NCBI RefSeq assembly: GCF_009469695.1
Contig: NZ_SSSR01000018.1
Coordinates: forward strand, 1-64,000
Source: Propionivibrio limicola
Lineage (GTDB): Bacteria; Pseudomonadota; Gammaproteobacteria; Burkholderiales; Rhodocyclaceae
Reading direction: 5' to 3'
DNA length: 64,000 nt
The position numbers were made by a program, and so were the translations under genes. Positions 10,980 through 24,161 of this stretch are shown in pieces. The notes beneath the pieces were generated by a model. It was given only the letters and a program-made list of their open reading frames with translations. It ran no database searches and was not told the origin of the DNA. Position 1 is the first letter of the stretch; each line of letters opens with the position of its first letter.

Positions 10980-11341
10980 TTAAAGACAATGGGGAACCTC
11001 GGGCGCGGGAATCGGCTCCTCGGCGAATTCTATCAACCCCAACGCCATCGCCCAGCTATGCACTGACCATCGCGCCTCCTCTTCGGACAGCGCGCTTTCG
11101 CGTTGCAGCCAATTCATCATCTTGGGGAGCAGGATGGACGGAATCTGCCGCCGTCCCAATCGCTGCAGTTCAGACACCACATCCACATCAAACGCGGCCA
11201 ATACCAGCTGAATCTCGAAATCCTGTTCGGGACACAAAGCGCTTAGCTTTTCCGCGTAATGCGCTGACGAGCGGGAAAAAACAAGATCCTGACAACAAAG
11301 GATACAAGCAGCGCACGACGCACGGACATTCTGTTTTTCAT
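10980..11341 (-). CDS. Small protein with a CPE..EI..ARWxVxSWAxALG domain; apparent frameshift near its start
   Basis: The C-terminal ~95 residues (LSALCPEQDFEIQLVLAAF ... EEEARWSVHSWAMALGL) resemble a helical module seen at the tail of many large bacterial multidomain proteins; here it stands almost alone. The best start signal is ATG at 11341 with GGAG 6 nt upstream, in a frame that reads MKNRMSVRRALL but ends after about 32 codons. The conserved domain lies one frame away. Slipping back by one base at the T6 tract (about 11268-11273) would join them. It may be a homopolymer error, a real mutation or a programmed shift. If unshifted, the domain frame stays open back to 11438, but that would run through two operators. 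Function unknown. Confidence 0.5.
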
Positions 11342-11383
11342 GCGGGTCTCCGTCAAAGGTACGGACGAAGTTTGCATGAGTGC

Positions 11384-11402
11384 TGCGACAGGTTGTGTCG
11401 CA
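11384..11402. promoter_or_regulatory. WYL-regulon operator O1 (perfect copy)
   Basis: TGCGACA ggttg TGTCGCA: 14 of 14 arm positions. It lies 43 bp upstream of the minus-strand ATG at 11341, with a weak -10 candidate CAAACT 9 nt downstream on that strand. It is one of nine matching sites between 11.3 and 23.8 kb. Confidence 0.75.
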
Positions 11403-11428
11403 TTCCTGCTTTGCGTCGAACAACATCA

Positions 11429-11447
11429 TGCGACACACTCTGTCGCT
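11429..11447. promoter_or_regulatory. WYL-regulon operator O2
   Basis: TGCGACA cactc TGTCGCT: 13 of 14 arm positions. A plus-strand -10 candidate TACAAT (11457-11462) follows 9 nt later, so the site covers the -35 region of a promoter reading into the genes at 11510 and 11599. Confidence 0.75.
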
Positions 11448-11509
11448 GGCTTTCTCTACAATCGAAAGCTATGCGTGCCACCTGCACCGTTCCCCCCTAG
11501 GAGAGCAAC

Positions 11510-11590
11510 ATGCTTCAATTGTTCATCGCAATGATCGTTACCCAGATCATGCAACCAATTCCTGATGCCCTCCGGAAACCAACAAAATAG
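11510..11590 (+). CDS. Possible 26-residue leader or micro-protein
   Basis: A short frame begins MLQLFIAMIVTQIM and ends ALRKPTK. AGGAGAGCAAC precedes the ATG, and the stop is 8 bp before the ATG of the gene at 11599. The N-terminal half is hydrophobic and the C-terminus basic. It could be a leader peptide coupling translation of the downstream gene or a small membrane protein. Evidence is only the start signal and the position. Confidence 0.35.
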   Translation: MLQLFIAMIVTQIMQPIPDALRKPTK

Positions 11591-11598
11591 GAGATTTC

Positions 11599-12123
11599 AT
11601 GATGACTTCCCGCTACCTGATAGTGGACACCGGCCTGTCCATGGATACCGCCGATGATCTGGCCGAAGATTATCCATTTCGGCAAACGCAGGCTTTGCTG
11701 ATGGTTATCGGCGAAGCCGACGCGTGGATCAATTGTGCATGCCAGCACATTGGCCAGACACCGCCCGCGTGCCTCGCAAGCGTCGTTCAGTGGCTTGCAC
11801 GGGCAGAAGATTTTCTCGGCGACATTACGGAGGAGATCGAAGACGGCAATGAAGACGTATCGCTCGGGCGATTAAGCGCCGACGATGACCTTTATGACCT
11901 GCTTGACGAGATCATCACGGGAAAACCGGAGTGGGACTGCTGGGATGAAGACGATGATTCGCTACCTGACGAGGCTACCTATAACACGCTCATCTCTCTG
12001 GTCGAGTTTTGGATCGACAATGTTGAAACACATTTGATCCGCGTCCAACAGCATTTCATTGGCGATGGCGAGGTACTGGGGATTTTGTCCCGTCAGCAAT
12101 GTCTAACGAAAGTTCGCGCGTGA
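11599..12123 (+). CDS. Acidic protein of unknown function
   Basis: I do not recognise this 174-residue protein. It is strongly acidic, with DITEEIEDGNEDVSL and WDCWDEDDDSLPDE segments, and has no signal peptide or membrane segment. AGGAG is present 6 nt before the ATG. Upstream are the putative leader and operators O1/O2, so it is very likely part of the WYL regulon. A 12-bp hairpin follows at 12151. A role as an acidic adaptor or inhibitor is conceivable but unsupported. Confidence 0.7.
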   Translation: MMTSRYLIVDTGLSMDTADDLAEDYPFRQTQALLMVIGEADAWINCACQHIGQTPPACLASVVQWLARAEDFLGDITEEIEDGNEDVSLGRLSADDDLYDLLDEIITGKPEWDCWDEDDDSLPDEATYNTLISLVEFWIDNVETHLIRVQQHFIGDGEVLGILSRQQCLTKVRA

Positions 12124-12150
12124 TTTTTTGTTGTTCGGTTGTCCGGTAAT

Positions 12151-12188
12151 TGGCGGAACTATCCGCGGATATGCGAATAGTTCCGCCA
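12151..12188. terminator. Perfect 12-bp stem-loop between convergent genes
   Basis: The arms TGGCGGAACTAT and ATAGTTCCGCCA enclose a 14-nt loop in the gap between two convergent genes. It has no T-run on either strand. It probably acts as a shared transcription end or RNA stabiliser. Confidence 0.5.
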
Positions 12189-12202
12189 GGAAGCCTATCC
12201 GA

Positions 12203-12904
12203 TTAGGCTACATGTTCCACAATGCGTTGCTTGCCATCCACGAGTTTGACAGATCCAAAACTTCCCTCTAAGTATCCGAATTTTTCGAGGTAGTCGCTCT
12301 TGAGCGACGTATCTTCTCGTTTCAGAACACCGTTCTTACATGAAAACACTTGTGCTTTTAGGAAGCACTTGCAGTTGGCGAGTGAAAACTCAAAGATATT
12401 AGGCTCCAAATAGCCATCTCGCTCGATTCTTTGCCTTTCAGATTCGTCATCTTTGTTCCGGATTGCAAGTACAGCATGTACTGAAAACGGCCGTCCGAAA
12501 AAAGAATCCTCAGAAAACTGTTCATGGAAGTTTTGCAAATCGCTATCGGAAAAATGTGAGCCGCTAGTTCTTGCTTCGGGGAGTGTCATCTCTTGAGATA
12601 GATACGGATGTGTGTGAATTGACCCTAAAAAATCATAGCCAGCCCCGTATGCAAACTGTTCCTTTAAAAATGTTGCATCCTCGTTGTTCTGCACCCATCC
12701 CCCATTCATGTCAGCAGAACTGTCTATTGATACGAAATCAACATGGTGATGAACCGTTCTTGACGTCTCTTCTGTATGGCCAAACAACAAGCCGTAGAAC
12801 TCTATCGCATGGCGCTTTTTGTTTCCGTGTTTTACGACAAACGCTTCAAAGCCGTTCATTAAAGATTGAACAAGCGCTGGTTTGGAAAAATGAACGTAAT
12901 GCAT
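12203..12904 (-). CDS. JAB/MPN (JAMM) domain metallopeptidase-like protein
   Basis: The 233-residue protein shows a JAMM pattern: Glu35 in HAIEFYGLLFGH, then His97-x-His99-Pro and Ser119-x-x-Asp122 (SDSD). JAMM zinc isopeptidases remove ubiquitin-like or other tags. The stretch between HTHP and SDSD is about 18 residues, longer than usual, so catalytic competence is an inference. Start at 12904 is set by GGAGG just upstream; the open frame before it is not needed. The gene is visibly richer in A+T than its neighbours and lacks the operator shared by the surrounding genes. Its upstream region instead holds phased short repeats. It looks like an inserted cargo gene; the substrate is unknown. 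Confidence 0.75.
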   Translation of the reverse strand: MHYVHFSKPALVQSLMNGFEAFVVKHGNKKRHAIEFYGLLFGHTEETSRTVHHHVDFVSIDSSADMNGGWVQNNEDATFLKEQFAYGAGYDFLGSIHTHPYLSQEMTLPEARTSGSHFSDSDLQNFHEQFSEDSFFGRPFSVHAVLAIRNKDDESERQRIERDGYLEPNIFEFSLANCKCFLKAQVFSCKNGVLKREDTSLKSDYLEKFGYLEGSFGSVKLVDGKQRIVEHVA

Positions 12905-13009
12905 GAAAATCCTCCGTCTGTTGTAAGAAATAAAATACCACTGGAGATTGCAAATCCAACTGAATGGCTCAGTGAAGGATTGCATCGACTAGCGGGGTGC
13001 TGCGGGCTT

Positions 13010-13104
13010 GTAGATGTTTTGTAAGTGGCGAACGTGGCAGTAGATGTTTTTGCTATTCCGTAGATGCGCTCCCAAGGAATCGGGCTTCCGGTAGACGTTT
13101 TTTT
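13010..13104. repeat. Four phased short direct repeats (GTAGAYG, three with a T-run)
   Basis: Copies start at 13010 (GTAGATGTTTT), 13040 (GTAGATGTTTTT), 13060 (GTAGATGCG) and 13091 (GTAGACGTTTTTTT). Spacings of 30, 20 and 31 bp put them on one face of the helix. They lie 106-200 bp upstream of the JAMM gene and may be a binding array for an unknown regulator. Confidence 0.6.
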
Positions 13105-13121
13105 GCCGGACTGAGCTGACG

Positions 13122-14159
13122 TCATGGAATCTCAATGGATTGATACTGCTTTGCTGCCTCGACAAGCGTTTTCGCCACTTGATCGCGCAGGCTGGCGGGC
13201 TCTTCAATCACGATATCGGCCCCGTGCGACAGAATCCACCAATGCAACTGCCAGGTGTCGGCGACGGTTGCTTCAAGGCGAATTTTGTCGTCTTCGGCGA
13301 TCAGTCGTTGATCCGCCGAAAGAGGTGTTTCGGTCAGGATCTCCGAGACCGCTTTAGCAATTGAGGCGACCAGTTTTATCGTTTCCCCCTTGCCAAAGTG
13401 CAGGGCGCCGGAGGCAACGTAGTCGTCGAGCGAGAATCCTGGCGGCGGCACGACAGCCTCTTCGAGGCGTTGGGCGTCGACGATCCGGTGCATGGCATAC
13501 AGCCGGACGTCTTCGTAATCAAACGCGGTGGCGACGAGGTAGGTCGCCGGCCCGCGCTGCACCAGCGCCAGCGGATGCAGGCGCATTTCCTGCGGCTCTT
13601 TTCCGTTTTTCTGGTAGTGCACAAGGAGTTGCCGGTCGGCAAGCAGGGCTTCCTGCGTGGCGAACAGGACGTTTTCGTCCACTTTGGGCGGGAGTAACGG
13701 CAGCGTCGGAGAAACGTAGCGCACCTTGTGGACCCAGCGGGCGGCGGTGTTGTCATCTTCCAGCTCGTCGAGCTTGTTCTTGGCCTGCTTGAAGCGCGGT
13801 TCCATCGAGTCGAGGACGGCGGCCGGCAGCAGTGGGCGAAGCAGTTCTTCCACGATGCTCATCGAAACGGCGTCGCTGACGCTGATGCCCGGGAGATTGG
13901 CGGGCTCGCCTTTCGTCCAGTACCAGCCATACGGCGTGCCCTTGTCGTTGCAGGAGATGCCGAAAATCGTCGACAGGCTGATCAGGTCACGCTCGACCGT
14001 GCGCTTGGTGACGTCGAATCCGTCGTTTTTCAGCCGTTCGGTGAGCTCCTTGGCGCTAATGCCGGGGGCGCGGTTGGGCAATTTGCACAGCATGTCCCAT
14101 TGGCGGGCTTGAGCCAGATGATTGGCGGCTTTTGGCATGATTGATTTTCCGTTTGGCAT
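13122..14159 (-). CDS. WYL-domain transcriptional regulator
   Basis: The 345-residue protein has an N-terminal winged helix (KELTERLKNDGFDVTKRTVERDLISLS) followed by a WYL domain (LLVHYQKNGKEPQEMRLHPLALVQRGPATYLVATAF) and a C-terminal extension. Such proteins sense ligands, often nucleic acids or nucleotides, and control stress or phage-defence operons (BrxR/CapW repressors, PafBC and DriD activators). GGAG lies 5 nt before the ATG. Operator O3 lies 34 bp upstream, so it probably regulates itself as well as the other eight sites. Whether it represses or activates cannot be read from sequence. Confidence 0.92.
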   Translation of the reverse strand: MPNGKSIMPKAANHLAQARQWDMLCKLPNRAPGISAKELTERLKNDGFDVTKRTVERDLISLSTIFGISCNDKGTPYGWYWTKGEPANLPGISVSDAVSMSIVEELLRPLLPAAVLDSMEPRFKQAKNKLDELEDDNTAARWVHKVRYVSPTLPLLPPKVDENVLFATQEALLADRQLLVHYQKNGKEPQEMRLHPLALVQRGPATYLVATAFDYEDVRLYAMHRIVDAQRLEEAVVPPPGFSLDDYVASGALHFGKGETIKLVASIAKAVSEILTETPLSADQRLIAEDDKIRLEATVADTWQLHWWILSHGADIVIEEPASLRDQVAKTLVEAAKQYQSIEIP

Positions 14160-14192
14160 GGTTTCTCCGAATGTTACTACGCGTCATCGCAT

Positions 14193-14211
14193 TGCGACGG
14201 ATTGCGTCGCA
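14193..14211. promoter_or_regulatory. WYL-regulon operator O3 (autoregulatory site)
   Basis: TGCGACG gattg CGTCGCA: 12 of 14 arm positions to the consensus and a perfect inverted repeat in itself, with arms extending to 9 bp. It lies 34 bp upstream of the WYL regulator start, which is the main reason to assign the motif to that protein. Confidence 0.75.
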
Positions 14212-14242
14212 ATGAACTCAGGGCGCCCGCCATTGCCCGGCT

Positions 14243-14821
14243 TCAGAACCATGCCCGGTAATTTCTGACGTAATCTTCCTGCTCCAGCGTTTCGATGGTG
14301 TTCCGGCGCGCCGTGCGCACGGCGTTAATGGCGGCTTCCGGCGCGAAACCCGCTTCGATCAGCAGGCATCCGGCAAGCGTTCCTGTGCGCCCGAGTCCGC
14401 CCATGCAATGAATGAAGAGGTGTTCCCCTTGGCTCAGCAAGTCGATCATCTCCCGGCCCAGCGTTGGCCAAAGATCGTGAAACGCGGCCCCCGGCGGTTG
14501 CCTGTCCGGAATCGGCAGGTGGCGCCAGTTCATTTGGTGGGCTTTGACCCGTTCGGGGAGCGCCGTCACCTGCAAATGGGAAAATTCGTGTTCCTCTATG
14601 AGTGAAACGACCATCGACGCACCCCAGTCGCGGATTCGGACGAGATCCTTGTCGAGATCCCTGTCCCACGCGCCGGTCAGCGCGTCAGATTGTTTCTTGC
14701 CGGGGCAGAAGGACATGCCGATGTTGCCCCAGCCGTTGGGGAGATGAAGGGTGTCGATGCGCAGCGGGGCGCTGTCGCTGGTGCGAGCGCTGGATGAAAA
14801 ATGTGTCATGTGAGTTGTCAT
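14243..14821 (-). CDS. Dual-specificity/tyrosine phosphatase-like protein
   Basis: The 192-residue protein contains the cysteine-phosphatase loop HCMGGLGRTG (Cys139, Arg145) and a plausible general acid Asp106 in PIPD, as in CDKN3-like bacterial dual-specificity phosphatases. Expected to hydrolyse phosphotyrosine or a small phosphorylated substrate in the cytoplasm. Start at 14821 lies 5 nt past the stop of the AAA+ gene, so the two are co-transcribed; a second ATG at 14809 is possible and no strong ribosome-binding site distinguishes them. It belongs to the O4 promoter unit. Confidence 0.85.
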   Translation of the reverse strand: MTTHMTHFSSSARTSDSAPLRIDTLHLPNGWGNIGMSFCPGKKQSDALTGAWDRDLDKDLVRIRDWGASMVVSLIEEHEFSHLQVTALPERVKAHQMNWRHLPIPDRQPPGAAFHDLWPTLGREMIDLLSQGEHLFIHCMGGLGRTGTLAGCLLIEAGFAPEAAINAVRTARRNTIETLEQEDYVRNYRAWF

Positions 14822-14826
14822 GTGTC

Positions 14827-17076
14827 TTATCCAATAAATCCAAAGGTTTTTGCCGGCTGGCTTTGCTTGATCGCACATTCGCGCACAAGGCACTGCAGAA
14901 AATCTTCCGGCGAATAGCGTTCGCCAATCAGTGTCTCCTGGCGCCTGACTGTCGCAAAATCCCCCGGCGTGAGCGCGCCGAGCCGCTGCAGCCCCGTACG
15001 AACGGGCGCAGACAGGAGGTGCGCGGCGCCATCGAGCACCGTGTCGATAAACATCGCTTCACGCTGTGCCGTATCGAGTGCGTTGAAACGCAGTTTGAAG
15101 GTAAAGCGGCGCAGCGCAGCCTCATCAACGTCGTCCATCAGGTTGGTCGTGCAAATGAATACGCCGTCGAACGATTCCATCTGCTGCAGCAACTCGTTGA
15201 CCTGCGTCACCTCCCACGATTGATTGGCGTGCTGGCGACTGCGCAGGAAACTGTCGGCTTCATCCAGCAACAGAACCGCACCGTCGCGGCTCGCTTCGGC
15301 GAACATGCGGGCGATGTTTTTCTCGGATTCGCCGACGTACATGCCGAGCAGATCCGAGGCCCGTTTGATCATGAGCGGTCGGCCGATTTTATCAGCCAGA
15401 CGGTGGGCCAAAGACGTTTTCCCCGCACCGGGAGCGCCATAAAAACAGAGCGTCGCCGATGGCCGGCGGCAGAGCGATTGTTCGATCTTCTCCAGCGGGA
15501 TGTCCGTATCCAGATTCAAGAATCCCAGCTGGCACGTATCGCCCCTGGACTGGAGTTGCGTTGTCGTCGCCGGTCGTCCCATGGCGTGCTGGCTGGCCTT
15601 GATGGCTTCCGCCAGGGCGGTTTCATCGAAGGAACCCGGCGTCGATTGGCAGAGGCTGGCAAACCGGCTGGCCAGATTGATTTGCGCCGGACTGAGGCGA
15701 TCATCGGAGGCCAGTTTGCTGACGAGTTCATGGCTGACGGGGATTTCGCCCAGGCAGCGACGCACGACGCGTTCTCGGACCGTCTTGGGCGGCGTACGGA
15801 ATTCGATGTGGAAGGAAAAACGGCGAAGAAACGCGTCATCGACCGCCTTGATCGAGTTGCAGATCCAGATCGCCGGCACTGGCGAGCTTTCGAGCTGGTT
15901 GTTGATCCAAGCCTTGGATTGGTCGCCGCCGCCGGAGGCCTTTCCGCCAAGCAGCGAGAGGAAGCTGAAACCTCTGTCCGGAAATACATCTTCCACTTCA
16001 TCGAAGATGACCAGCGAACGTTCTCGCTCGGTCAGGAAGCGTTGCGACAAGGAAAAGTGCGTCAGGCGTGTTTTGCCGGCAATCGAATCGCCGTCGTCAT
16101 CCGCCGATTTCACGTCAAATGCGGTCAGGCCGGCGTGTTGAGCGATCAGTCGGGCAAACTCCGATTTGCCGGTGCCGGGAGTGCCGTAAAACAGCACATT
16201 GGTGCCCTTGATCTGGCCTTGGCTGGCGTTGCGCAAATACGAGACCAGCCACTCAAATTCGCGGGTCAGATGCGGGTAGTCTTCCAGCGTCAGCGACGAT
16301 GCCGCGCTTGGATGGAGCACAACGCGCAACATGTCTTCTGCCTTCGAAAACGTTTCGCCGAGGAAGCTTTCCCCCGTATCGGCAAGACGGATTACATCCT
16401 CCATGTCGCTCGGTGAGCGATCGAAATCAATCAGCCCGAAGGCGCGCAGCGGCGCATCGGCCCGCAATGCTTTGCAGACGCTCTCTATAGGCGCATCAAT
16501 GGCGGCAGCCAGCAGGGAATAGGCTTCGCGCGCGTCGAGGTTATCAATGGATCGAAGAAACGACCGGAAGGGCTCGGCGTTCCTGTGCTCGGCAAAATCA
16601 AGGAGACGCTTTTCGAGCGGGCTCAAGCCGACAAGGCTTCCCAAAAGGGTGATGTTCGGATTGCGCGGAGTATTCGCAGAATCTTTGGCCGTCAGGCTTG
16701 AAAAATGATCGGCTAGCGCATCGGAAATCGGTTTCTGATCCTCGTTAAAGAGGCGGGAAACGACATTTTGATACGTGCGCCACGTGCTACGACACTTCAG
16801 CAATACCGACAGCGGTTTGTCGCCGTAAGACCGTGGTGAAGTCTCGTCATCATCTTCCGCCTGAATGGCTTTTACGATGGCCGCCGTGATTTTCCGTGGC
16901 CATTTCATGGTCTTGCCGAGGAGGCGAAGCAGCGCCTCGCTCTCTTCCATGCACTTGGCGAGAACGTCCGGGTGACTCAGGGCGATTTTTAGCGCGTAAA
17001 CGGTTGGGCGGAGGGTGCTTTTACCTTCTGCCGTGCTCCCTTGCCGGGGGCTATCCAACTCAATTTTGATGTCCAT
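14827..17076 (-). CDS. Tandem AAA+ ATPase
   Basis: The 749-residue protein has a helical N-terminal ~290 residues without recognised domain. Then comes AAA+ module 1, with Walker A GTPGTGKS at 298-305, Walker B IFDE at 357-360 and FLRRF at 416-420. AAA+ module 2 has Walker A GAPGAGKT at 547-554, Walker B LLDEADSF at 603-610 and ALRRF at 654-658. Both modules keep catalytic Glu and sensor Asn (CNS, TTN), so two active ATPase rings are expected, as in Cdc48 or ClpB-type remodellers. Start at 17076 is set by GGGAGA 6 nt upstream; the frame is open further upstream but unsupported. Operator O4 lies 44 bp upstream. Substrate unknown. Confidence 0.88.
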   Translation of the reverse strand: MDIKIELDSPRQGSTAEGKSTLRPTVYALKIALSHPDVLAKCMEESEALLRLLGKTMKWPRKITAAIVKAIQAEDDDETSPRSYGDKPLSVLLKCRSTWRTYQNVVSRLFNEDQKPISDALADHFSSLTAKDSANTPRNPNITLLGSLVGLSPLEKRLLDFAEHRNAEPFRSFLRSIDNLDAREAYSLLAAAIDAPIESVCKALRADAPLRAFGLIDFDRSPSDMEDVIRLADTGESFLGETFSKAEDMLRVVLHPSAASSLTLEDYPHLTREFEWLVSYLRNASQGQIKGTNVLFYGTPGTGKSEFARLIAQHAGLTAFDVKSADDDGDSIAGKTRLTHFSLSQRFLTERERSLVIFDEVEDVFPDRGFSFLSLLGGKASGGGDQSKAWINNQLESSPVPAIWICNSIKAVDDAFLRRFSFHIEFRTPPKTVRERVVRRCLGEIPVSHELVSKLASDDRLSPAQINLASRFASLCQSTPGSFDETALAEAIKASQHAMGRPATTTQLQSRGDTCQLGFLNLDTDIPLEKIEQSLCRRPSATLCFYGAPGAGKTSLAHRLADKIGRPLMIKRASDLLGMYVGESEKNIARMFAEASRDGAVLLLDEADSFLRSRQHANQSWEVTQVNELLQQMESFDGVFICTTNLMDDVDEAALRRFTFKLRFNALDTAQREAMFIDTVLDGAAHLLSAPVRTGLQRLGALTPGDFATVRRQETLIGERYSPEDFLQCLVRECAIKQSQPAKTFGFIG

Positions 17077-17119
17077 ATCAGTCTCCCAAAAGATTACAGG
17101 GAGAAGGATAGTTGTAGCG

Positions 17120-17138
17120 TGAGTCAGAATATGTCGCG
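17120..17138. promoter_or_regulatory. WYL-regulon operator O4
   Basis: TGAGTCA gaata TGTCGCG: 11 of 14 arm positions. It lies 44 bp upstream of the AAA+ ATPase; on the minus strand a TATCCT -10 candidate follows 9 nt later. Confidence 0.6.
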
Positions 17139-17195
17139 ATGAGGATTGCAGCGCGAGTGGCTTTTCGATTCCGATTTCTGCCCTCCATAATCGCG

Positions 17196-17214
17196 CACGA
17201 CATAAGATGTCGCA
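17196..17214. promoter_or_regulatory. WYL-regulon operator O5
   Basis: CACGACA taaga TGTCGCA: 12 of 14 arm positions. On the plus strand GATAAT (17223-17228) follows 8 nt later, and the first gene of the sirtuin operon starts 70 bp downstream. O8 has the same layout. Confidence 0.7.
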
Positions 17215-17283
17215 TGAGTGCGGATAATGCGGCTTCATGGGTAATCCATACACCACGATGCCTGCCTGAGGAGGAATCAGAAC

Positions 17284-17676
17284 ATGCCACGGCTGCTGAA
17301 ATTCATTGACGCCATCGCCCGCGAGAAGAAACGCGATGTCCTGTTCATCGCCTTCCGCTCGAAAGCCGATTGGCGAAAAAATCCACGGCGGCAGCGTGTC
17401 TGCCAATGGCTGACCGAGCATCAGATCGCGTGGGAGGAGTGCGGGCCATTCGCCGACGAGTGCTGCATGCGGAGTTACGAAGGGCAGATTTACGTCGATG
17501 TGCCGTATGACGATACCGATCCCATGTATCTGCAGGTGCGGGACTATCTCGAGAAGCCGGACGGAACGATGCGCGATCCGAAAGTGGTTTTCTATCTTGT
17601 GCCGCTATCAGACGCCATGAGAAACGCCCATCACGACGAACCCGGGTTTTGGGAAAAATGGGCGGAAGGCTTTTAA
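17284..17676 (+). CDS. Conserved-looking hypothetical protein, first gene of the sirtuin operon
   Basis: The 130-residue protein is not recognised. It is soluble, rich in Trp and charged residues, and has two adjacent cysteines (DECCMR) plus a DVPYDDTDP segment. GAGGAGG precedes the ATG by a good distance. It is followed by a 63-residue gene and a sirtuin, all in one direction and under operator O5, so it may serve the sirtuin as partner or substrate adaptor. That role is inference from position only. Confidence 0.75.
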   Translation: MPRLLKFIDAIAREKKRDVLFIAFRSKADWRKNPRRQRVCQWLTEHQIAWEECGPFADECCMRSYEGQIYVDVPYDDTDPMYLQVRDYLEKPDGTMRDPKVVFYLVPLSDAMRNAHHDEPGFWEKWAEGF

Positions 17677-17748
17677 CCGGTTACGGCACCCATGACGGCG
17701 GCCAAGGGTATCCGTAATTCCGGATCAACTCACCCGATAGAGGAGACC

Positions 17749-17940
17749 ATGATGGCAAAAAAGACTGATGAGAAACGCGAGCGGAGAATCGCAAAATTGG
17801 AGGCGGAACTCGGGCAAGCCCTTTACCCCGTCTCGCGTGATGGCCGCTCCGCAGAGGTTTGGCTCCGTTTTCTTGAGTTTGTGAAAATGGAAAAAGACAT
17901 GAACAGCAGCGCGTGGCACCGAATGACATGGTGGGATTAA
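17749..17940 (+). CDS. Small basic hypothetical protein (63 residues)
   Basis: It begins MMAKKTDEKRERRIAKLEAEL, a likely coiled helix, and ends AWHRMTWWD. AGAGGAGACC gives a good ribosome-binding site for the ATG at 17749; the earlier in-frame ATG at 17692 has none. It lies between the 130-residue gene and the sirtuin, whose start is 26 bp downstream. Function unknown. Confidence 0.6.
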   Translation: MMAKKTDEKRERRIAKLEAELGQALYPVSRDGRSAEVWLRFLEFVKMEKDMNSSAWHRMTWWD

Positions 17941-17966
17941 ACGATTTCAAGGAGAGGGGTGGAAGA

Positions 17967-18779
17967 ATGTACGAACAGGAAATCGCACAGGCGGCTGCCT
18001 TGATTAAAAACGCCGATGCGTTGTTGATTACCGCCGGCGCCGGAATGGGCGTCGACTCGGGCCTGCCGGACTTCCGTGGCAACGAGGGTTTCTGGAAAGC
18101 GTATCCGGCCTTGGCGGCGAGCCGCGTGGAGTTTTCCTCCATCGCCAACCCCCACGCCTTCCTCGCCGATCCAAAACAGGCATGGGGCTTCTACGGCCAT
18201 CGTCTGGCGCTGTACCGCAAAACCGTGCCGCACGAAGGTTTCCAGATACTGCGTGACATCGCGGCGCGCATGCGGCTCGGCTGCTTTGTCATCACCAGCA
18301 ACGTGGACGGGCAATTTCAGAAAGCCGGCTTTGACGCCTCGCGAATCCTCGAGATTCACGGCTCGATTCACCATCTGCAATGTATGGACCCCTGCCGGGA
18401 AACCGTTTGGCCAGCCGACTACCTGACCCCGAAAATTGACGAGGAAAAGTGCGAATGGACCGGCCAACTGCCCACATGCCTGCATTGCGGCTGCCTGGCC
18501 CGGCCCAACGTCCTGATGTTCGACGACTGGCACTGGCAGCCCCTCCGCCACGATCTGCAGCGCGGCAACTGGCGGGTTTGGTCCGACCTGCCGAAGAAAA
18601 TGGTGGTCATCGAACTCGGCGCCGGGATCGATATCCCGTCAATCCGCCGCACGAGTGAAGCGCAACGTGTTCCGGTGATTCGCATCAACCCGCGGCATCC
18701 GGAAGTACGTTCGGAAACGGGGGTGAGTTTGCCGATGGGGGCGAAGGATGCGCTGGTGGCGATATGGAAGTTGTTATGA
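17967..18779 (+). CDS. Sirtuin (SIR2-family NAD-dependent deacylase or ADP-ribosyltransferase)
   Basis: The 270-residue protein opens with the NAD-binding GAGMGVDSGLPDFRG. It has TSNVDGQF in the nicotinamide pocket region, the catalytic His in EIHGS, and cysteine pairs (CMDPC, CLHCG) for the structural zinc. It should use NAD to deacylate lysines or transfer ADP-ribose. Start at 17967 is supported by AAGGAGAGG upstream; the 18 in-frame codons before it overlap the previous gene. Third gene of the O5 unit. An ADP-ribosylglycohydrolase and a second, broken sirtuin lie within 4 kb under the same operator, suggesting NAD/ADP-ribose chemistry as the theme. Confidence 0.93.
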   Translation: MYEQEIAQAAALIKNADALLITAGAGMGVDSGLPDFRGNEGFWKAYPALAASRVEFSSIANPHAFLADPKQAWGFYGHRLALYRKTVPHEGFQILRDIAARMRLGCFVITSNVDGQFQKAGFDASRILEIHGSIHHLQCMDPCRETVWPADYLTPKIDEEKCEWTGQLPTCLHCGCLARPNVLMFDDWHWQPLRHDLQRGNWRVWSDLPKKMVVIELGAGIDIPSIRRTSEAQRVPVIRINPRHPEVRSETGVSLPMGAKDALVAIWKLL

Positions 18780-18906
18780 CTTCGCAGATTGTAGAGGTTC
18801 TCATATATCAGGTGGGGGAAAGTTATTATGGACCGCAAAAAGTCTGTTGTTCATCAACAGTTCTCAGGTACGCTAAAGGTAAAGCATAAGGACACAAGGG
18901 AAGACG

Positions 18907-19704
18907 ATGGAAATTGATTCAAAGACAGCCTTCAATATGAACGCAAAAAAATGCAATGACGACGATTACCTTACTGTCGATATTAAACAGTTGATTCATT
19001 TCTTCGATGTAGATGCTGGAGCTCAACAAGATTCGAGTTCCATTAAAGGAGTAATTGGAGAAGAATTTGCCTTCGCCTGCATGAAACAATACTTTGAAGG
19101 TATTGGTAAATTGGCGACTCTCATAACCGATAACGGAAAACGAACTCCTTGTACGACTGGAGAGCGTAAGGGCTATCAACTTGATGGCTGGTTGCAGGTA
19201 GGGGAGAAGCTCTATCAGGTTGAAATCAAGTCGTGGTCTTTTCATGGAATTGGCAGCAAAAACAGAAAAATGCCAATCGGTGGTTCCTGTGACGATGCTT
19301 TGGTTGAGCAAAAAAAAATTTTTAACCATTACTACGATTCCAAAGAAAAAGAATTTCTGCAAAGTGGGGTCAAAAAGGTTCTATTGGAAATGAATATCCC
19401 CAAAAAAATCCAAGAGCTAAATCTAAAACCTCAACCATTACTCTGCCTCTGGGAGGCTGTATCTCCGAAAGATACAAAGTCGAGTTCGCCCTTCTTCTCC
19501 GTGGATGTGGATAAAGACAAAATTGGTAATTTAAAAGAATGTAAAAGCGGAGAATTCACGCAGGTGAGTATCTTCTCTGTTTCAAATTACCTTCGCGGCA
19601 TTCTGGCTGACGCCGACAAAACCGGCCCTAACCCGACTATTCGTCTGCATTTGCCCCGCATTTCCGCTCGAATTCGGCGGCTTCAGCAGATATTCCAGAG
19701 CTGA
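18907..19704 (+). CDS. Putative PD-(D/E)xK nuclease-like protein
   Basis: I do not recognise the family of this 265-residue protein. A core pattern fits the PD-(D/E)xK fold: GEEFAF in an early helix, then YQLDGWL with a candidate metal-binding Asp, then a strand YQVEIKSW giving Glu-x-Lys about 15 residues later. A plausible glycine-rich turn follows. The start ATG follows AGGGAAGACG. The gene is clearly A+T richer than its neighbours and has no WYL operator, suggesting separate acquisition, perhaps as a restriction or defence nuclease. This is motif-level inference only. Confidence 0.6.
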   Translation: MEIDSKTAFNMNAKKCNDDDYLTVDIKQLIHFFDVDAGAQQDSSSIKGVIGEEFAFACMKQYFEGIGKLATLITDNGKRTPCTTGERKGYQLDGWLQVGEKLYQVEIKSWSFHGIGSKNRKMPIGGSCDDALVEQKKIFNHYYDSKEKEFLQSGVKKVLLEMNIPKKIQELNLKPQPLLCLWEAVSPKDTKSSSPFFSVDVDKDKIGNLKECKSGEFTQVSIFSVSNYLRGILADADKTGPNPTIRLHLPRISARIRRLQQIFQS

Positions 19705-19870
19705 GCATGTAACCAAAAAAGGATGTGAGCAGCTCCTTGGAATTGCGATGTTTTAAGAAGGCTAGCTACCGGGGGGGCTGACGTCCAATTCGCCGACTTG
19801 AGCTTGGATTATCTGAGCGCACGGCATGACAGATACAAATCTGACAGGCTCCTCTCTGGCAATTGGAGCT

Positions 19871-20776
19871 TTATGTTTCATTCGCTACACCGCTAACAAC
19901 ATGACCGACCGGCCCGGCTTGCGCCGCCGACTGGCAATGCCGGGTCTGGTCGTCAAAGAAGAAGTCGGGTTCGAATTCTTTCAGAAACGGGCCTTTTTCC
20001 AATCCGCCAAGGAACATGGCTTCGTCGATACTGATGTTCCAGCCCATCAGGGTGCGGATGGCCCGTTCATGTGCCGGCCAACTGCGTGCCGTGACCAGCG
20101 CCGTGCGAATCCTGACGGCGTTTTCCGCCGAGGTTTCGGACTGCAGTTTGTGCAAGGCATCCAGTAGCGGTTTGAACGGGCCGGGCGGAAGCGGCTGAAA
20201 GGCTTTGGCGCGTTCATGTTCGGTGAAAGCGGATAGGCCGTCCTTCTGAAATACGCGTTCGGCTTCATCCGAGAACAGAACCGCGTCGCCGTCGAATGCA
20301 ATGCGGATTTCATGGGGGTGGCGGTCGGCTTCCAGCATTGATTGTGCGAATACGCGAGCGGCGGGGAAGCCAGCCGTCAACGCATTTCTGACGTCATCCT
20401 CGTGCGCCGAGAGAAACAGGTGGGCGCCCAGCGGGTTGAGGTAACGGTAGGCGGGTTTGCCACGGGTAAAAACGCCTCGCGTCAGATCGAGGTGATGGCT
20501 CTCGGCCGATCGGAAGACCCGCAGGCCGGAGACAGGGTCATTTCGGGAGACGATGATGACTTCCACGCGCCGCTGATCTTCCGTGTTCAATGAGAGCAAT
20601 TTTTTCACCAACGGGTAGGCAACCCCTGGCTTTGCGGCAACTTCCAGCCGGTCGAGTTGCAGCTGCATATACGCGGCGTCATCCTGCGATTCGAAAACCT
20701 CGTTCTCCTCCTCGAAATCGAACAGCGCACGGGATGAGAGGGCGACGACGAGTTGATTGTCCAGAGTGGCAGGCAT
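19871..20776 (-). CDS. 5'-nucleotidase of the cN-I type
   Basis: The 301-residue protein matches the cytosolic 5'-nucleotidase I family throughout: SSRALFDFEEEN near the N-terminus, SRNDPVSGLRVF, FTRGKPAYRYL, IAFDGDAVLFSDEAERV and LGGLEKGPFLKEF. Expected to dephosphorylate AMP or related monophosphates in the cytoplasm. Monocistronic on the minus strand, with operator O6 79 bp upstream. With sirtuin and ADP-ribosylglycohydrolase neighbours it could clear nucleotide products of NAD breakdown; that link is inference. Confidence 0.9.
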   Translation of the reverse strand: MPATLDNQLVVALSSRALFDFEEENEVFESQDDAAYMQLQLDRLEVAAKPGVAYPLVKKLLSLNTEDQRRVEVIIVSRNDPVSGLRVFRSAESHHLDLTRGVFTRGKPAYRYLNPLGAHLFLSAHEDDVRNALTAGFPAARVFAQSMLEADRHPHEIRIAFDGDAVLFSDEAERVFQKDGLSAFTEHERAKAFQPLPPGPFKPLLDALHKLQSETSAENAVRIRTALVTARSWPAHERAIRTLMGWNISIDEAMFLGGLEKGPFLKEFEPDFFFDDQTRHCQSAAQAGPVGHVVSGVANET

Positions 20777-20854
20777 GGGATGTCAGACGTAACAGGTGAA
20801 TTGCATGAAGCATATCGGCAGATGCGTTTGTATTCCAGCGCTCATCTTGTTTTA

Positions 20855-20873
20855 TGCGACACAACGTGACGCG
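20855..20873. promoter_or_regulatory. WYL-regulon operator O6
   Basis: TGCGACA caacg TGACGCG: 12 of 14 arm positions, 79 bp upstream of the 5'-nucleotidase start. No clear -10 at the usual spacing. Confidence 0.55.
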
Positions 20874-20883
20874 GGGCGGGTGC

Positions 20884-21867
20884 TCAAGCCGGGATCAAAC
20901 CTCCGATCAGCGGATCGACGTATCGGGTCTGGAGCCACTCGGGCCGTAATTGCCCCTTTTTCACATCGCAATTGAGCAGCGCCGAGCGCATCAGTTCGGG
21001 AATTCCCTGTGCGCCATGCAAGGCTCCCAGCAGCCCACCGACAATGCAGGCGTTGGTGTCGGTGTCGCCACCTCCCGAGAGAATGATCGCCAGCGCCTCG
21101 TAATAGCTCGTTTTGTTGAGCAAATGATGAAAAGCATGAGTGAAGGCGATGCGCACAAAACCGGCGCTTGGGTAGAACGCTGGGAGATCGCCCCGTTCGG
21201 CTTCTTGCAGCCAGGCGCGAACTTCCCTTGCCTCAACAGCATCCAGCACGCCATGAGCTGCCGCAAATGCGCCGCGATGGTCGCCATGGTTAAGCATCAA
21301 ATGGCGGATCGCGATGACATAAGCTGCATTTGCCCACTGGCAGGATGGGTTCGGGTGGGTTAATCGGGCGTCGCTTCGGGCGGCGTTCACCGTGCTTTCG
21401 ATATCGAGGCGGTGTGACCACACGCCCAACGGTGCGATGCGCATCAAGCTGCCGTTGGCTTTTGAGTTCGCATTGGAGGCAAGGGCGTTATTGCTGACGA
21501 GCTCGGCCAGTTCGTGATCGTCAAGATCGCCTTCGCACAACGCGGCCGAGGTAGCGCCGCCGATATCGAACGGTCGGCTTAAGTACCAGCGACGATAAAA
21601 CCGTGCGGCCCTGGTGGGCGGATAAAGGTCGCGATCGCGCAGGGCATGACACAGGGCCAGGATCAGCTCGCCATCGTCGGTGATCTGGCCGGGCGCTGTT
21701 TGCCAAACGCCGCCGCCCGACATGCACAGCGCAGCGCGGACCTCGTTGGCCGAAGGTTTGTGTCCAAGAAATTCAAGCGTAGCGCCCGCCGCATCGCCGA
21801 TCAGCGCGCCCATGATGGCGCCTTCCGCCGTGTCGCGCATTCGTAGCGAAGAAAAATTGTTGTGCAT
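20884..21867 (-). CDS. ADP-ribosylglycohydrolase (ARH/DraG family)
   Basis: The 327-residue protein has the ARH metal-site motifs: GALIGDAAGA at the N-terminus, the TDDGE segment around residue 60 and the C-terminal SGGGDTDTNACIVGGLLGA. Such enzymes remove ADP-ribose from proteins, nucleic acids or small molecules using two Mg ions. Start at 21867 is chosen because GGAAAGG lies upstream and operator O7 is 47 bp away; the longer open frame would run through that operator. It is divergent from the broken sirtuin, and the two share a 200-bp promoter region with O7 and O8. Confidence 0.92.
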   Translation of the reverse strand: MHNNFSSLRMRDTAEGAIMGALIGDAAGATLEFLGHKPSANEVRAALCMSGGGVWQTAPGQITDDGELILALCHALRDRDLYPPTRAARFYRRWYLSRPFDIGGATSAALCEGDLDDHELAELVSNNALASNANSKANGSLMRIAPLGVWSHRLDIESTVNAARSDARLTHPNPSCQWANAAYVIAIRHLMLNHGDHRGAFAAAHGVLDAVEAREVRAWLQEAERGDLPAFYPSAGFVRIAFTHAFHHLLNKTSYYEALAIILSGGGDTDTNACIVGGLLGALHGAQGIPELMRSALLNCDVKKGQLRPEWLQTRYVDPLIGGLIPA

Positions 21868-21913
21868 GCAAAGCCTTTCCGATGCCGAATTTGCACTCAT
21901 CGTAACGGACGTG

Positions 21914-21932
21914 TGCGGCGAGTTATGTCGCA
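21914..21932. promoter_or_regulatory. WYL-regulon operator O7
   Basis: TGCGGCG agtta TGTCGCA: 12 of 14 arm positions, 47 bp upstream of the ADP-ribosylglycohydrolase. On the minus strand TACGAT follows 9 nt later as a -10 candidate. Confidence 0.65.
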
Positions 21933-21982
21933 GCAAAGCGTGGATGCTCGATCCCGTTTTACACCATCGGCACCGGTTTCTC

Positions 21983-22001
21983 CGCGACGTATTGTGGCGC
22001 A
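21983..22001. promoter_or_regulatory. WYL-regulon operator O8
   Basis: CGCGACG tattg TGGCGCA: 11 of 14 arm positions. On the plus strand GATAAT (22010-22015) follows 8 nt later, and the sirtuin remnant starts 70 bp downstream, the same geometry as O5. Confidence 0.6.
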
Positions 22002-22070
22002 CTCGTCCGGATAATTTTCTGTGAAGCGGCTGATGAACCAGGCCAGTCTAAATAGGGAAAGGTATCCGAC

Positions 22071-22557
22071 ATGACATTTACGGCAGAGAGCATTGGTTCC
22101 GCATTGACGGAGATTGCACGCCTCCTCGCGCGAGCGCGTCGCGTACTGTTCATCACGGGGGCCGGGATTTCGGTGGATTCGGGATTGCCAACCTATCGCG
22201 GCGTGACCGGGTTGTACGACAGCGGCGAAACAGAGGACGGCATCCGCATCGAAGAGGCGCTTTCCGGGTATGTCCTCGCCTGTTGGCCAGAGGTGTCGTG
22301 GAAATATATTGCCGAGATCATGCGTCATTGCCGCAATGCGCAACCCAACCCCGGGCATCTGGCAATTTCCGAGTTGGAGTCAATGATTCCGGAGATTGTC
22401 GTTTTGACCCAGAACGTGGATGGGCTGCACCGGAAGGCGGGGAGCAATAATGTGATCGAACTGCACGGCAGCACCGTCCGTCGTGACCTATTACCTGCCG
22501 GTGGGAGCGTCCGAGGGGTTACAGGGCATTATCGAGCGCATGAAGCTTCTCGGTTAG
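22071..22557 (+). pseudogene. Broken second sirtuin (internal deletion plus frameshift)
   Basis: The first ~140 residues are a good sirtuin: ITGAGISVDSGLPTYRG, TQNVDGLHRKAG and the catalytic IELHGS. Directly after HGS the frame loses all similarity, where a zinc-binding module and small domain should follow. A neighbouring frame from about 22480 to the TAG at 22555-22557 reads a plausible sirtuin-like C-terminal tail (YYLPVGASEGLQGIIERM). I read this as loss of roughly 80-100 codons with a shift of frame. An unbroken 168-residue product ending at 22577 is formally possible but would lack the zinc module. Promoter and operator O8 remain. Confidence 0.65.
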
Positions 22558-22601
22558 GGGGACTTACAGGTTATTAATCAGATTCTTGTTGTTGAAAGCT
22601 T

Positions 22602-23681
22602 TCAGGCCGCCAGGATGCTGACCTCAAGCATGTCGGGCGATGCTTCATGGTAATTGGCGCCAAAAATAATCATGGCATCGGGTTGCGCCTCTGCGCGCAA
22701 CGCCGTCATCACGTCATTGATTTCCCGTATTTTCAGGGAGGTTCTTTCCGCCCTGATGGAAACCTGAATGCCGCGGGCTGCTTTCAGCCGATCAATGCCG
22801 AGGAGCGGATGCTGCATTGCCGATTGGGTCGCCTCACGCGTGCGGCTGGTGCCTTGCGAATGCCCCCAGCCAATACCGGTTGTAGTGCCCGCGAGCGTCG
22901 TGCGGATATCTTCAAGATCGACGCTGACAAGTCCTTGTAGCGCTGTAACGCCGGCAATACCCCAATAGACGTTCTCGATTGCCGTCTGTGACTGGGCAAA
23001 CACGTCGGAAAACGGAGCTCCCGCCGGAAGAGAGTGCAGCAAGTCGGCATTCGATATGGGCACGACAATGTCGGCTCGTCGTGCCAATGCATTCAAGCCA
23101 GCTGCCGCAATCTGGTTGCGCCTGAGCCCTTCAAACGGGAACGGCAAAACGGGAACGCCCACGGTGAGCGCGCCCAGATCATGGGCAATCGCGGCGACAA
23201 CGGGCGCAGCCCCCGTTCCGGCCCCACCGCCGAGACTGGAAATAATCAAAACGATATCGGCGCCGGCAAGAGCTGATGTGATTTCTGGCGCCTTCGATTT
23301 TGCGAGTAGGCGAACATCGTTTGGCGAGAGCTGTTCTTGTCCCCCCGATCCCAATAGGATGCGTCGTTGTGCTGGCACACGATTGAGTCCGATCAAGTCG
23401 GTATCGACAGCCACCGTCTCGAAAGGGTATGAAACAGCCGGCCGGAGTCGCGCTGTGATATCGCCACCCGCCCCGCCAATCGCGACAACGACGACCCGAA
23501 GTAAATCGTGATCACCTATTTCTGCAAGAGGGGGCGTTACTTGTGAAAGTCTTTCTTCGCGCTGGGAAAAAAATGGCTTTTGGGGCGCCGTATTTGCCAC
23601 TGTCTTGGCAAGACCGATCACAGGTGCGGAAGCGCTTAATGCGCTCGCCGTCAGGGAAAACAAAAAATCACGCCGATCCAT
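22602..23681 (-). CDS. FtsZ/tubulin-like GTPase with an apparent Tat signal peptide
   Basis: The 359-residue protein carries the tubulin/FtsZ nucleotide loops: GGAGGD at 69-74, the signature GGGAGTGAAP at 151-160 and a T7-like VDLEDIR at 254-260 that keeps both catalytic Asp. It is shorter than, and distinct from, housekeeping FtsZ. The N-terminus MDRRDFLFSLTASAL...GLA looks like a twin-arginine signal: RRxFL, a hydrophobic stretch and small residues. That would be extraordinary for a GTP-dependent filament protein. Start at 23681 (ATG) is preferred over a TTG four codons upstream; neither has a strong ribosome-binding site. Operator O9 lies 44 bp upstream. Possibly one of the FtsZ-like families linked to membrane remodelling. 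Confidence 0.82.
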   Translation of the reverse strand: MDRRDFLFSLTASALSASAPVIGLAKTVANTAPQKPFFSQREERLSQVTPPLAEIGDHDLLRVVVVAIGGAGGDITARLRPAVSYPFETVAVDTDLIGLNRVPAQRRILLGSGGQEQLSPNDVRLLAKSKAPEITSALAGADIVLIISSLGGGAGTGAAPVVAAIAHDLGALTVGVPVLPFPFEGLRRNQIAAAGLNALARRADIVVPISNADLLHSLPAGAPFSDVFAQSQTAIENVYWGIAGVTALQGLVSVDLEDIRTTLAGTTTGIGWGHSQGTSRTREATQSAMQHPLLGIDRLKAARGIQVSIRAERTSLKIREINDVMTALRAEAQPDAMIIFGANYHEASPDMLEVSILAA

Positions 23682-23724
23682 GGCAGCGTCCAATCAAAAG
23701 ATTGGTGATAGTTTGACATTCCGC

Positions 23725-23743
23725 TCCGACATCATATGTCGTA
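23725..23743. promoter_or_regulatory. WYL-regulon operator O9
   Basis: TCCGACA tcata TGTCGTA: 12 of 14 arm positions, 44 bp upstream of the FtsZ-like gene. A weak CAAACT -10 candidate follows 9 nt later on the minus strand. Confidence 0.65.
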
Positions 23744-23818: not shown

Positions 23819-23840
23819 GGCAGACAGCATGCTGTCTGCC
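23819..23840. terminator. Perfect 22-bp palindrome downstream of ssrA
   Basis: Two 11-bp arms (GGCAGACAGCA and its complement) meet with no loop, just past the 3' side of the tmRNA. There is no adjacent T-run, though one occurs about 25 bp further on. Probable end or processing structure of the ssrA transcript. Confidence 0.5.
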
Positions 23841-23849
23841 CGGCAGATG

Positions 23850-24127
23850 TGACGGTGGGGACCGAAGTCCCCACCGGCTTTTCTTTGGTAACAAGGCTCA
23901 AGCAGCCTCGGCATAGGCCTTAAGCGGCCAGTGCGAAACGCTCATCGTTGGCGTTTAGAGATTTGCTTCATTAACGTCGATCGCCTGACGAGTTGCCTGC
24001 GCACCTTTGTCCGCCCTGTCGAAACCAGATACACCCCCACCTAAGAGCACTCCGATACGCTTAGGTGGAGGTGGCGGGAATCGAACCCGCGTCCAGAACG
24101 CCTCCAGATTGCCGGAATTACAACCAT
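23850..24127 (-). ncRNA. ssrA: Circularly permuted (two-piece) tmRNA
   Basis: On the minus strand the acceptor piece comes first (24127 to 24064): it contains GGGTTCGATTCCC of the T arm and ends CACCTCCACC. An intervening segment follows (24063-24039). The tag-coding piece then begins with GGGGGTG (24038-24032), which pairs with CACCTCC to form the acceptor stem. In ordinary one-piece tmRNA this order is reversed. The tag frame at 23952-23920 reads ANDERFALAA and stops at TAA, giving (A)ANDERFALAA. The terminal CCA is not fully encoded (ACCT). The RNA rescues stalled ribosomes with SmpB and marks products for ClpXP. The 3' boundary is approximate. Confidence 0.93.
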
Positions 24128-24133
24128 GGTTCA

Positions 24134-24161
24134 ATTATGAACCGTTGCATGAGATAGTCAA
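24134..24161 (-). promoter_or_regulatory. ssrA promoter
   Basis: TTGACT (24161-24156) and CATAAT (24139-24134), separated by 16 bp on the minus strand, lead directly into the acceptor piece of the tmRNA. Confidence 0.7.

Follow-up and report, generated by a model that had tools for sequence, protein, structure and literature searches.

Palindromic sites and genes of the cluster

The stretch of DNA analysed here, referred to as the window, comprises positions 1 to 64,000 of contig NZ_SSSR01000018.1 of Propionivibrio limicola (64,000 nucleotides). Part of it is a gene cluster containing a gene for a WYL-domain regulator and nine copies of a palindrome, TGCGACA-N5-TGTCGCA, which we consider as predicted operators (O1 to O9) of that regulator. 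The nine copies had been listed in a preliminary description made from the sequence, and all were confirmed, with a spacer of constantly 5 bases and 11 to 14 of the 14 arm bases matching. They are the exact palindrome O1 (11384–11402), O2 with one mismatch (11429–11447), O3 with two (14193–14211), O4 with three (17120–17138), O5, O6 and O7 with two each (17196–17214, 20855–20873 and 21914–21932), O8 with three (21983–22001) and O9 with two (23725–23743).

Seven of the sites were found upstream of a gene start, at distances of 33 to 78 intervening bases. O3 is 33 bases from the gene of the regulator (13122–14159, minus strand), a protein of 345 residues in which a helix-turn-helix (HTH) region is followed by WYL and WCX domains (Pfam, 5.4e-14 and 3.4e-15). 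O4 is 43 bases from the gene of a tandem AAA+ ATPase of 749 residues (14827–17076, minus; two stretches matching Pfam AAA), which is overlapped by a gene for a dual-specificity-type phosphatase (PTP-SAK; 14243–14893, minus). O5 is 69 bases from the gene of a conserved 130-residue protein with no assignable fold (17284–17676, plus), which is followed by a SIR2-family (sirtuin) gene (17913–18779, plus; Pfam SIR2, 2e-18), and O6 is 78 bases from a gene for a 5′-nucleotidase (19871–20776, minus; PF06189, E 6e-123). O7 lies about 46 bases from an ADP-ribosylglycohydrolase gene (20884–21867, minus; PF03747, E 7e-55) whose start is uncertain (21837 or 21867), O8 69 bases from a truncated SIR2-family open frame (22071–22577, plus; positions 1–107 of the 180 of the SIR2 profile), and O9 43 bases from a gene for an FtsZ-like GTPase (22602–23681, minus; Pfam Tubulin, 7e-24, and FtsZ_C, 2e-15).

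The preliminary description had placed all nine sites 34–79 bp upstream of gene starts, which holds for these seven genes but not for the two that it had assigned to O2 and O1, encoding an acidic protein and a CPE/ARW-domain protein, respectively. The gene of the acidic protein (174 residues; 11599–12123, plus; no Pfam family above the cut-off) starts 151 bp away from O2, and a 26-codon open reading frame (ORF) with a ribosome-binding site (11510–11590, plus) is nearer, starting 62 bp from the site. Downstream of O1, the start with a ribosome-binding site, at 11341 (42 bp), belongs to a 32-codon ORF (11243–11341, minus) in a frame different from that of the CPE/ARW gene.

In the whole window, 11 matches with up to three mismatches were present, compared with 5.13 expected from shuffled sequences. 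The nine sites fall within 12.36 kb, where about 1.0 was expected (Poisson, 1e-6); with the density found elsewhere in the genome, the expectation is 0.67 (Poisson, 4e-8). In the 3.1-Mb genome, sites with no or one mismatch were confined to the cluster (O1, the only exact copy, and O2), and 7 of the 19 sites with up to two mismatches were in it. The 12 others look like background, 11 of them being inside long open frames and a loose −10 being present at 2. An equal density of the motif over the genome, named in the preliminary description as the outcome that would speak against it, was thus not borne out, the sites being concentrated in the cluster, and the regulon appears confined within this genome to the 11.2–23.7 kb cluster. 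A near-twin of O4 elsewhere in the genome was rejected, since it lies within a coding frame and has no −10.

Conservation of the palindrome beside homologous WYL genes

The WYL gene is accessory, being detected at E 1e-30 in 20 of 300 genomes of the order, its own included, and absent at that threshold from all 8 listed genomes of the same family. Two sets of relatives were compiled. The first, of 83 loci, consisted of 80 named loci, the best 80 of 90 relatives retrieved with an alignment of seven WYL proteins, plus five from other genomes and minus two (L127 and L128) that are near-duplicates of L129; by their titles the named loci are mostly from Beta- and Gammaproteobacteria, with a few from Desulfobulbaceae, Desulfobaccales and Geobacter and one from Chloroflexi. 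The second, of 37 loci, came from a class-wide WYL profile search with matches in 30 of 369 genomes; as it includes five loci (L224–L228) from genomes already seen, three of them with known exact sites, these were omitted to give 32 clean validation stretches fetched regardless of sites, two of which (L195 and L223) are adjacent. Two of the omitted loci (L226 and L227) are copies in one genome.

The 83 loci contained 10, 26 and 58 sites at 0, 1 and 2 mismatches, respectively, compared with 0, 0 and 3 for the reversed motif, and 49 of them had one or more sites with no more than two mismatches. With six wrong spacers the corresponding numbers were 0, 0–1 and 4–6; with 20 arm-shuffled palindromes (19 distinct), searched in 85 loci, 0, 0–1 and 1–13; and in 20 hand-picked arbitrary regions, 396 kb in all, from ten WYL genomes, 0, 0 and 2. 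Similarly, the clean validation stretches gave 5, 14 and 18 sites (reversed motif, 0, 0 and 3), with at least one at up to two mismatches in 22 of the 32.

Exact palindromes occurred in 10 of the 300 genomes of the order, a sample not selected by WYL content, and six of these 10 were among the 20 WYL genomes (Fisher, 7e-6); upon exclusion of the window's own genome, the numbers were 5 of 19 WYL genomes versus 4 of 280 others (6e-5). The eight exact sites in the six WYL genomes are all no more than 3 kb from a WYL gene. The exact-site genomes without a WYL match numbered four, compared with three genomes for the reversed control, and in one of the four (G193) an AAA+ homologue is directly downstream, with a −10 at offset 28 (offsets are counted from the first base of the site). 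The whole promoter unit, that is, a site with up to one mismatch and its −10, was found in 9 of 398 genomes of the phylum, the window's own included, and for the reversed control in 3. Among plasmid loci, 7 of the 20 matches were opened: five had a site with up to two mismatches, one had only a three-mismatch site with a −10, and one had none shown. Viral contigs yielded one WYL relative.

Judged from these sequence comparisons, the palindrome is very probably the operator of the WYL family around the window regulator. The scan of this genome and its relatives that had been proposed earlier thus found the motif concentrated in the cluster and beside WYL homologues. The claim of one regulon under the WYL regulator is supported by the recurrence of the sites near homologous WYL genes and of gene families of the window beside the operator elsewhere.

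Position of the predicted operators relative to promoters

Alignment of 56 sites oriented by their genes (47 from relatives and 9 from the window) revealed that 71% have A at position 30 and 73% have T at position 34. When genes were ignored and either orientation was accepted, this pair was present at 64 of 94 sites, the next shorter offset (28) giving 28 of the 94 and other offsets a mean of 11.5 and a maximum of 22; control palindromes had it at 15 of 113. A −10 starting at 28 or 29 was found at 83 of the 94 sites, compared with 18–28 for other pairs of neighbouring offsets. In the clean validation stretches, 21 of 36 sites had a −10 at offset 29, 7 at 28 and 26 at either, the mean for other offsets being 2.8. 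The sites end 8–9 bp before the −10.

In the window, five of the nine sites have a −10 at offset 29: CAAACT for O1 (11369–11374, minus), TACAAT for O2 (11457–11462, plus), TATCCT for O4 (17105–17110, minus), TACGAT for O7 (21899–21904, minus) and CAAACT for O9 (23710–23715, minus). Two have one at offset 28, GATAAT in both cases, O5 (17223–17228, plus) and O8 (22010–22015, plus). As to the −35, the mean match to TTGACA at spacers of 14–20 in 100 promoters was 0.2–1.7 of 6 bases, compared with 1.5 in the upstream flank. A −10 at a fixed distance without a recognizable −35 suggests, on the part of the sequence, that the WYL regulator is an activator; the preliminary description had called the genes WYL-controlled and given no direction, to which the fixed spacing and the poor −35 now add one.

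Genes associated with the predicted operator in relatives

Links from a site with its −10 to a gene were tallied in relatives, three-mismatch sites being kept only with T29, A30 and T34. Since genes were called with a simple ORF picker, starts and some neighbours are approximate. Among 93 links, AAA+ ATPases (16), DUF2779 proteins (8) and WYL regulators (8) were the commonest, and SIR2 accounted for 3. In addition, the operator was sought within 300 bp of projected gene starts in 131 loci (up to two mismatches, or three with a −10), a measure by which inner operon genes cannot score; it was found for 27 of 131 WYL, 12 of 44 AAA+, 4 of 14 SIR2 and 4 of 6 FtsZ-like genes (two of the four being copies in one genome), for 1 of 8 ADP-ribosylglycohydrolase genes, for 1 of 5 genes of the 130-residue protein, and for none of 4 nucleotidase and 4 phosphatase genes. 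Homologues of the window proteins were present in 26 of the 83 and 14 of the 37 loci for the AAA+ ATPase, 5 and 0 for the 130-residue protein (operator and −10 at one), 2 and 2 for the 5′-nucleotidase, and 0 and 3 for the phosphatase; by tblastn, the SIR2-family protein was found in 12 and 1 and the ADP-ribosylglycohydrolase in 2 and 5. A fold search with the 130-residue protein gave no match below E 0.03.

Site-side proteins were also characterized by family, 111 of 121 being tallied; of the ten excluded, nine were WYL genes and one was a short frame. Of 56 further-filtered proteins, 29 were scanned singly, together with one DUF2779 protein, and for 14 of the 30 no Pfam family reached 0.01. 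The other cargo included an M41 peptidase, a DnaB-like helicase, a DNA polymerase III alpha subunit, PD-(D/E)XK and GIY-YIG proteins, an RNase T-like exonuclease and PLD-like proteins (below the cut-off); some matches, for example to a PfkB kinase, lack an obvious link. A member of the NADAR-DarT1 antitoxin family adjoins an operator (L112), and a macrodomain protein is near another. Single cargo genes of relatives matched two known defence proteins, PD-T4-3 and DdmD, the latter with 805 bits along almost the entire profile; in Pseudomonas sp. A-1 (L066), the gene of the DdmD homologue is preceded by a one-mismatch operator with a −10. DUF2779 is described as a predicted RNase H-like 3′-5′ exonuclease found with the PD-(D/E)XK-like DUF83 (PMC3985635).

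Two plasmids illustrate the arrangement. That of Sphaerotilus sulfidivorans carries, in order, genes of bacteriophage exclusion (BREX) type 2, the WYL gene, an exact operator (−10 at 28) and genes for an ATPase, Sir2, DUF4804 and a dual-specificity phosphatase. In that of Rhodoferax antarcticus an FtsZ-like gene is divergent from ATPase, DUF2779 and WYL genes across two one-mismatch operators, with a macrodomain gene beyond.

FtsZ-like proteins

The N-termini of three FtsZ-like proteins read M-D-R-R-D-F-L (window), M-K-R-R-N-F-L-K (L070) and M-N-R-R-K-L-F (Rhodoferax, L239), in this pairing, each followed by a mostly hydrophobic stretch, which by motif resembles a signal of the twin-arginine translocation (Tat) type. 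An operator was observed upstream of all three genes, that of the window, L070:8190–9386 (plus) and L239:2018–3127 (minus). Such an N-terminus was not found in the FtsZ-like proteins of L226 and L257, both beside operators. Both FtsZ Pfam domains were above the cut-off in all four relatives scanned. Searched with the window protein, plasmids gave 112 records and phages 19; the 20 and 10 of these listed had 31–38% identity over up to 76% of the query, and such matches, many annotated as FtsZ, do not set the FtsZ-like family apart from ordinary FtsZ.

Short proteins of L115 (4011–4802, minus) and L047 fell into one cluster, the L115 member having a weak FtsZ_C match below the cut-off; they are possibly degenerate relatives of FtsZ. 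The gene of the L115 protein is divergent from the WYL gene across an exact operator.

The WYL regulator and known WYL proteins

The order of domains places the window regulator in WYL class A (HTH-WYL-WCX). No HTH family was above the cut-off in a Pfam scan of the protein; in an AlphaFold model (predicted local distance difference test score 90.6, predicted template modelling (TM) score 0.70), the N-terminus forms a winged HTH with helices at residues 10–26, 36–45 and 52–65 and strands at 68–71 and 78–81. Profile comparison with the Protein Data Bank ranked PafBC (9e-16) and DriD (2e-14) ahead of CapW (2e-4) and Acinetobacter BrxR (3e-3), and Foldseek with the model gave DriD (8tp8) as best match over the whole chain (8.9e-16, TM-score 0.43), followed by PafBC (2e-13), CapW (8.5e-8) and BrxR (1.3e-7). 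Arginines R219 and R225 are aligned with arginines of DriD, R225 being conserved without exception among 49 aligned sequences. The palindromic nature of the site suggests a dimer.

DriD of Caulobacter crescentus is a WYL activator with the consensus ATACGAC-N7-GTCGTAT, whose sites overlap the −35 at a constant distance to the −10; it activates the operon divergent from driD and not driD itself (PMC12340889, preprint). It governs an SOS-independent response to DNA damage, switched on by single-stranded DNA (ssDNA), with a multi-gene regulon including a regulator of cell division. The core CGAC-N7-GTCG is common to both operators, and the printed driD/CCNA_03891 promoter has two mismatches to the window motif and that of didA four, with the hexamer at equal offset in both. 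The two regulators differ in that identity in the Foldseek alignment is about 20%, the HTH sequences are not recognizably similar, and the outer operator bases are unlike; moreover, the cargo of the window family is unlike that of DriD and is clustered around the regulator. The mycobacterial activator PafBC, similar in its WYL-WCX part, activates the housekeeping polymerase by inserting between the promoter and the −35-reading domain of sigma (PMC11804915), but is a heterodimer with a non-palindromic motif. SiwR of Mycobacterium smegmatis is a homodimeric WYL activator whose imperfect palindrome, 19 bp long, lies upstream of the −10 (PMC10693628); its target is a two-gene operon, and the palindromes were compared by description only. 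In Vibrio cholerae, a WYL gene (VC1772) upstream of ddmDE is a possible regulator under study (PMC12409362), and the DdmD homologue downstream of an operator in Pseudomonas sp. A-1 is comparable in gene context.

That WYL regulators sit on defence islands and that DriD uses this promoter mode is already known. Literature searches, mostly without subscription papers, found no earlier description of this regulon and no paper on WYL together with DUF2779; the operator–promoter unit shared across a WYL family and its cargo appears to be new.

Proposed mode of action and alternative explanations

Together, the sites, their clustering, their conservation across the family, their coupling to the −10 and the similarity of fold make it likely that the palindrome is the operator of an HTH-WYL-WCX activator, probably a homodimer acting in the manner of DriD on a mosaic cargo in response to damage or invasion. 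The regulator would occupy the place of a −35 element and recruit RNA polymerase to a promoter having only a −10, 8–9 bp past the site. It would be switched on when its WYL domain binds ssDNA, or a comparable nucleic-acid signal that indicates damage or invasion; ssDNA is what we infer by analogy with DriD and PafBC. Regulator, operator–promoter unit and cargo occur as a mosaic in many Pseudomonadota. From comparison, we likewise infer binding, activation and a contribution to survival of DNA damage or mobile elements.

Several observations weigh against this reading. No site with up to two mismatches was found in 34 of the 83 and 10 of the 32 loci, some of which have short flanks, and no −10 was present at either offset at 11 of the 94 and 10 of the 36 sites, nor at O3 and O6, the window sites of the WYL gene itself and of the nucleotidase gene. 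The −35 match at spacers 16 and 19, 1.7 of 6, slightly exceeds background, other spacers falling below it, and of the three printed DriD promoters that of bapE did not fit in this comparison. The TM-scores with known structures are low (0.42–0.44), with root-mean-square deviations of about 15 Å, so that the arrangement of domains is possibly different from that of DriD, and by sequence no WYL protein in the Protein Data Bank, DriD included, is matched by a profile of the HTH alone. In the 8 other genomes with the promoter unit, a family WYL gene was nearby in 4, a weak WYL relative in 1 and none in 3, one of the last having the unit on a 9-kb contig.

The last of these observations would be expected if the palindrome belonged to another regulator travelling with the islands, as would the finding in L230, where an exact site precedes an AAA+ homologue in a genome with no WYL match at 1e-30. 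However, exact sites are concentrated in WYL genomes close to the WYL gene, and the only other regulator recognized by eye among gene clusters of at least three loci, a LysR-like one, occurred in 7 of 84 loci, which makes this explanation very improbable. Another possibility is that the WYL protein represses a defence island, as do BrxR and CapW for BREX and cyclic-oligonucleotide-based antiphage signalling (CBASS) islands, respectively, and is released by a ligand during infection. The domain architecture and the 5-bp spacer of BrxR inverted repeats (PMC9122601) are in keeping with it, the Sphaerotilus copy adjoins BREX genes, and the site of the Acinetobacter repressor BrxR overlaps a predicted −35 (PMC9122589), so that a position at the −35 is, taken alone, compatible with repression. 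Yet a repressor binding over the −35 would be expected to have a −35 to occlude, and none is recognizable; the spacing to the −10 is fixed at sites of the window family, whereas CapW sites are on the −10 and that of Escherichia fergusonii BrxR is past the promoter; and in both sequence profile and fold the regulator is nearer to the activators DriD and PafBC. Repression thus seems unlikely.

That the motif is a chance pattern picked by eye could be argued from its total of 177 matches with up to three mismatches in the genome, close to the 163 of the reversed motif, which means that loose matching alone does not discriminate. It was rejected as practically negligible in view of the clustering, the uniqueness of the exact site, the conservation across loci and the counts for the −10. 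A different question is what the regulon does. The preliminary description regarded it as one physiological system acting on nicotinamide adenine dinucleotide (NAD), ADP-ribose and nucleotides, and the recurrence of sirtuin and ADP-ribosylglycohydrolase genes, the NADAR-DarT1 family member and the macrodomain protein agree with a dedicated signalling system of this kind. Most of the 83 loci, however, lacked such genes by tblastn; AAA+ ATPases and DUF2779 proteins are commoner than sirtuins at the operators, nucleases and genes of replication and repair occur as well, and the frequency of sirtuin genes compared with the 20 arbitrary regions (none) is alone not significant (p 0.12). A dedicated system is therefore doubtful; by sequence, NAD and ADP-ribose functions are only part of the regulon, and the sirtuin, ADP-ribosylglycohydrolase, phosphatase, nucleotidase and FtsZ-like genes are seen less frequently in relatives.

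Taking the activator reading further, we tentatively suggest, as possible rather than probable, a horizontally shared, SOS-independent alarm in which an ssDNA-sensing WYL activator would act through one fixed operator–promoter cassette, TGCGACA-N5-TGTCGCA-N8/9-TANNNT, on interchangeable effectors including FtsZ-like GTPases with presumed Tat signals. The site of action of such GTPases would be the membrane or the space outside the cytoplasm, where they would alter division or the envelope under damage or invasion. With the activator reading, the palindrome would provide a portable DNA signature for locating targets of a WYL activator family, promoter recognition in the mode of DriD is suggested to extend well past Caulobacter into defence islands, and the AAA+ ATPase, the DUF2779 nuclease, the 130-residue protein and the FtsZ-like GTPase gain a shared predicted inducer, by which their function becomes testable.

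Other features of the cluster

The two strongest operators, O1 and O2, both lead into tiny ORFs with ribosome-binding sites (32 and 26 codons), the second being hydrophobic. For the CPE/ARW open frame (10980–11438, minus), no obvious start bearing a ribosome-binding site is seen beyond O1; the frame is possibly disrupted, or uses an unusual start codon. The WYL gene is followed by a gene for a JAB-like protein (12203–12985, minus; weak match to Prok-JAB, below the cut-off), with no homologue in the 83 or the 37 loci, and a gene for a 265-residue protein without Pfam match (18907–19704, plus) has the same direction as the SIR2-family gene. Among ten window proteins scanned, PADLOC matched only the AAA+ ATPase (IetA and other AAA models), the WYL regulator and, weakly, the JAB-like protein.

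The content of G plus C is 0.49–0.60 over about 10–26 kb, compared with 0.61–0.66 in most flanking windows, with dips also at 1–3 and 31–35 kb; this lends weak support to acquired DNA. Genes for transfer-messenger RNA (tmRNA) are frequent insertion points of islands. One such gene (23829–24155, minus; marked tmRNA* by ARAGORN) is located just past the last operator.

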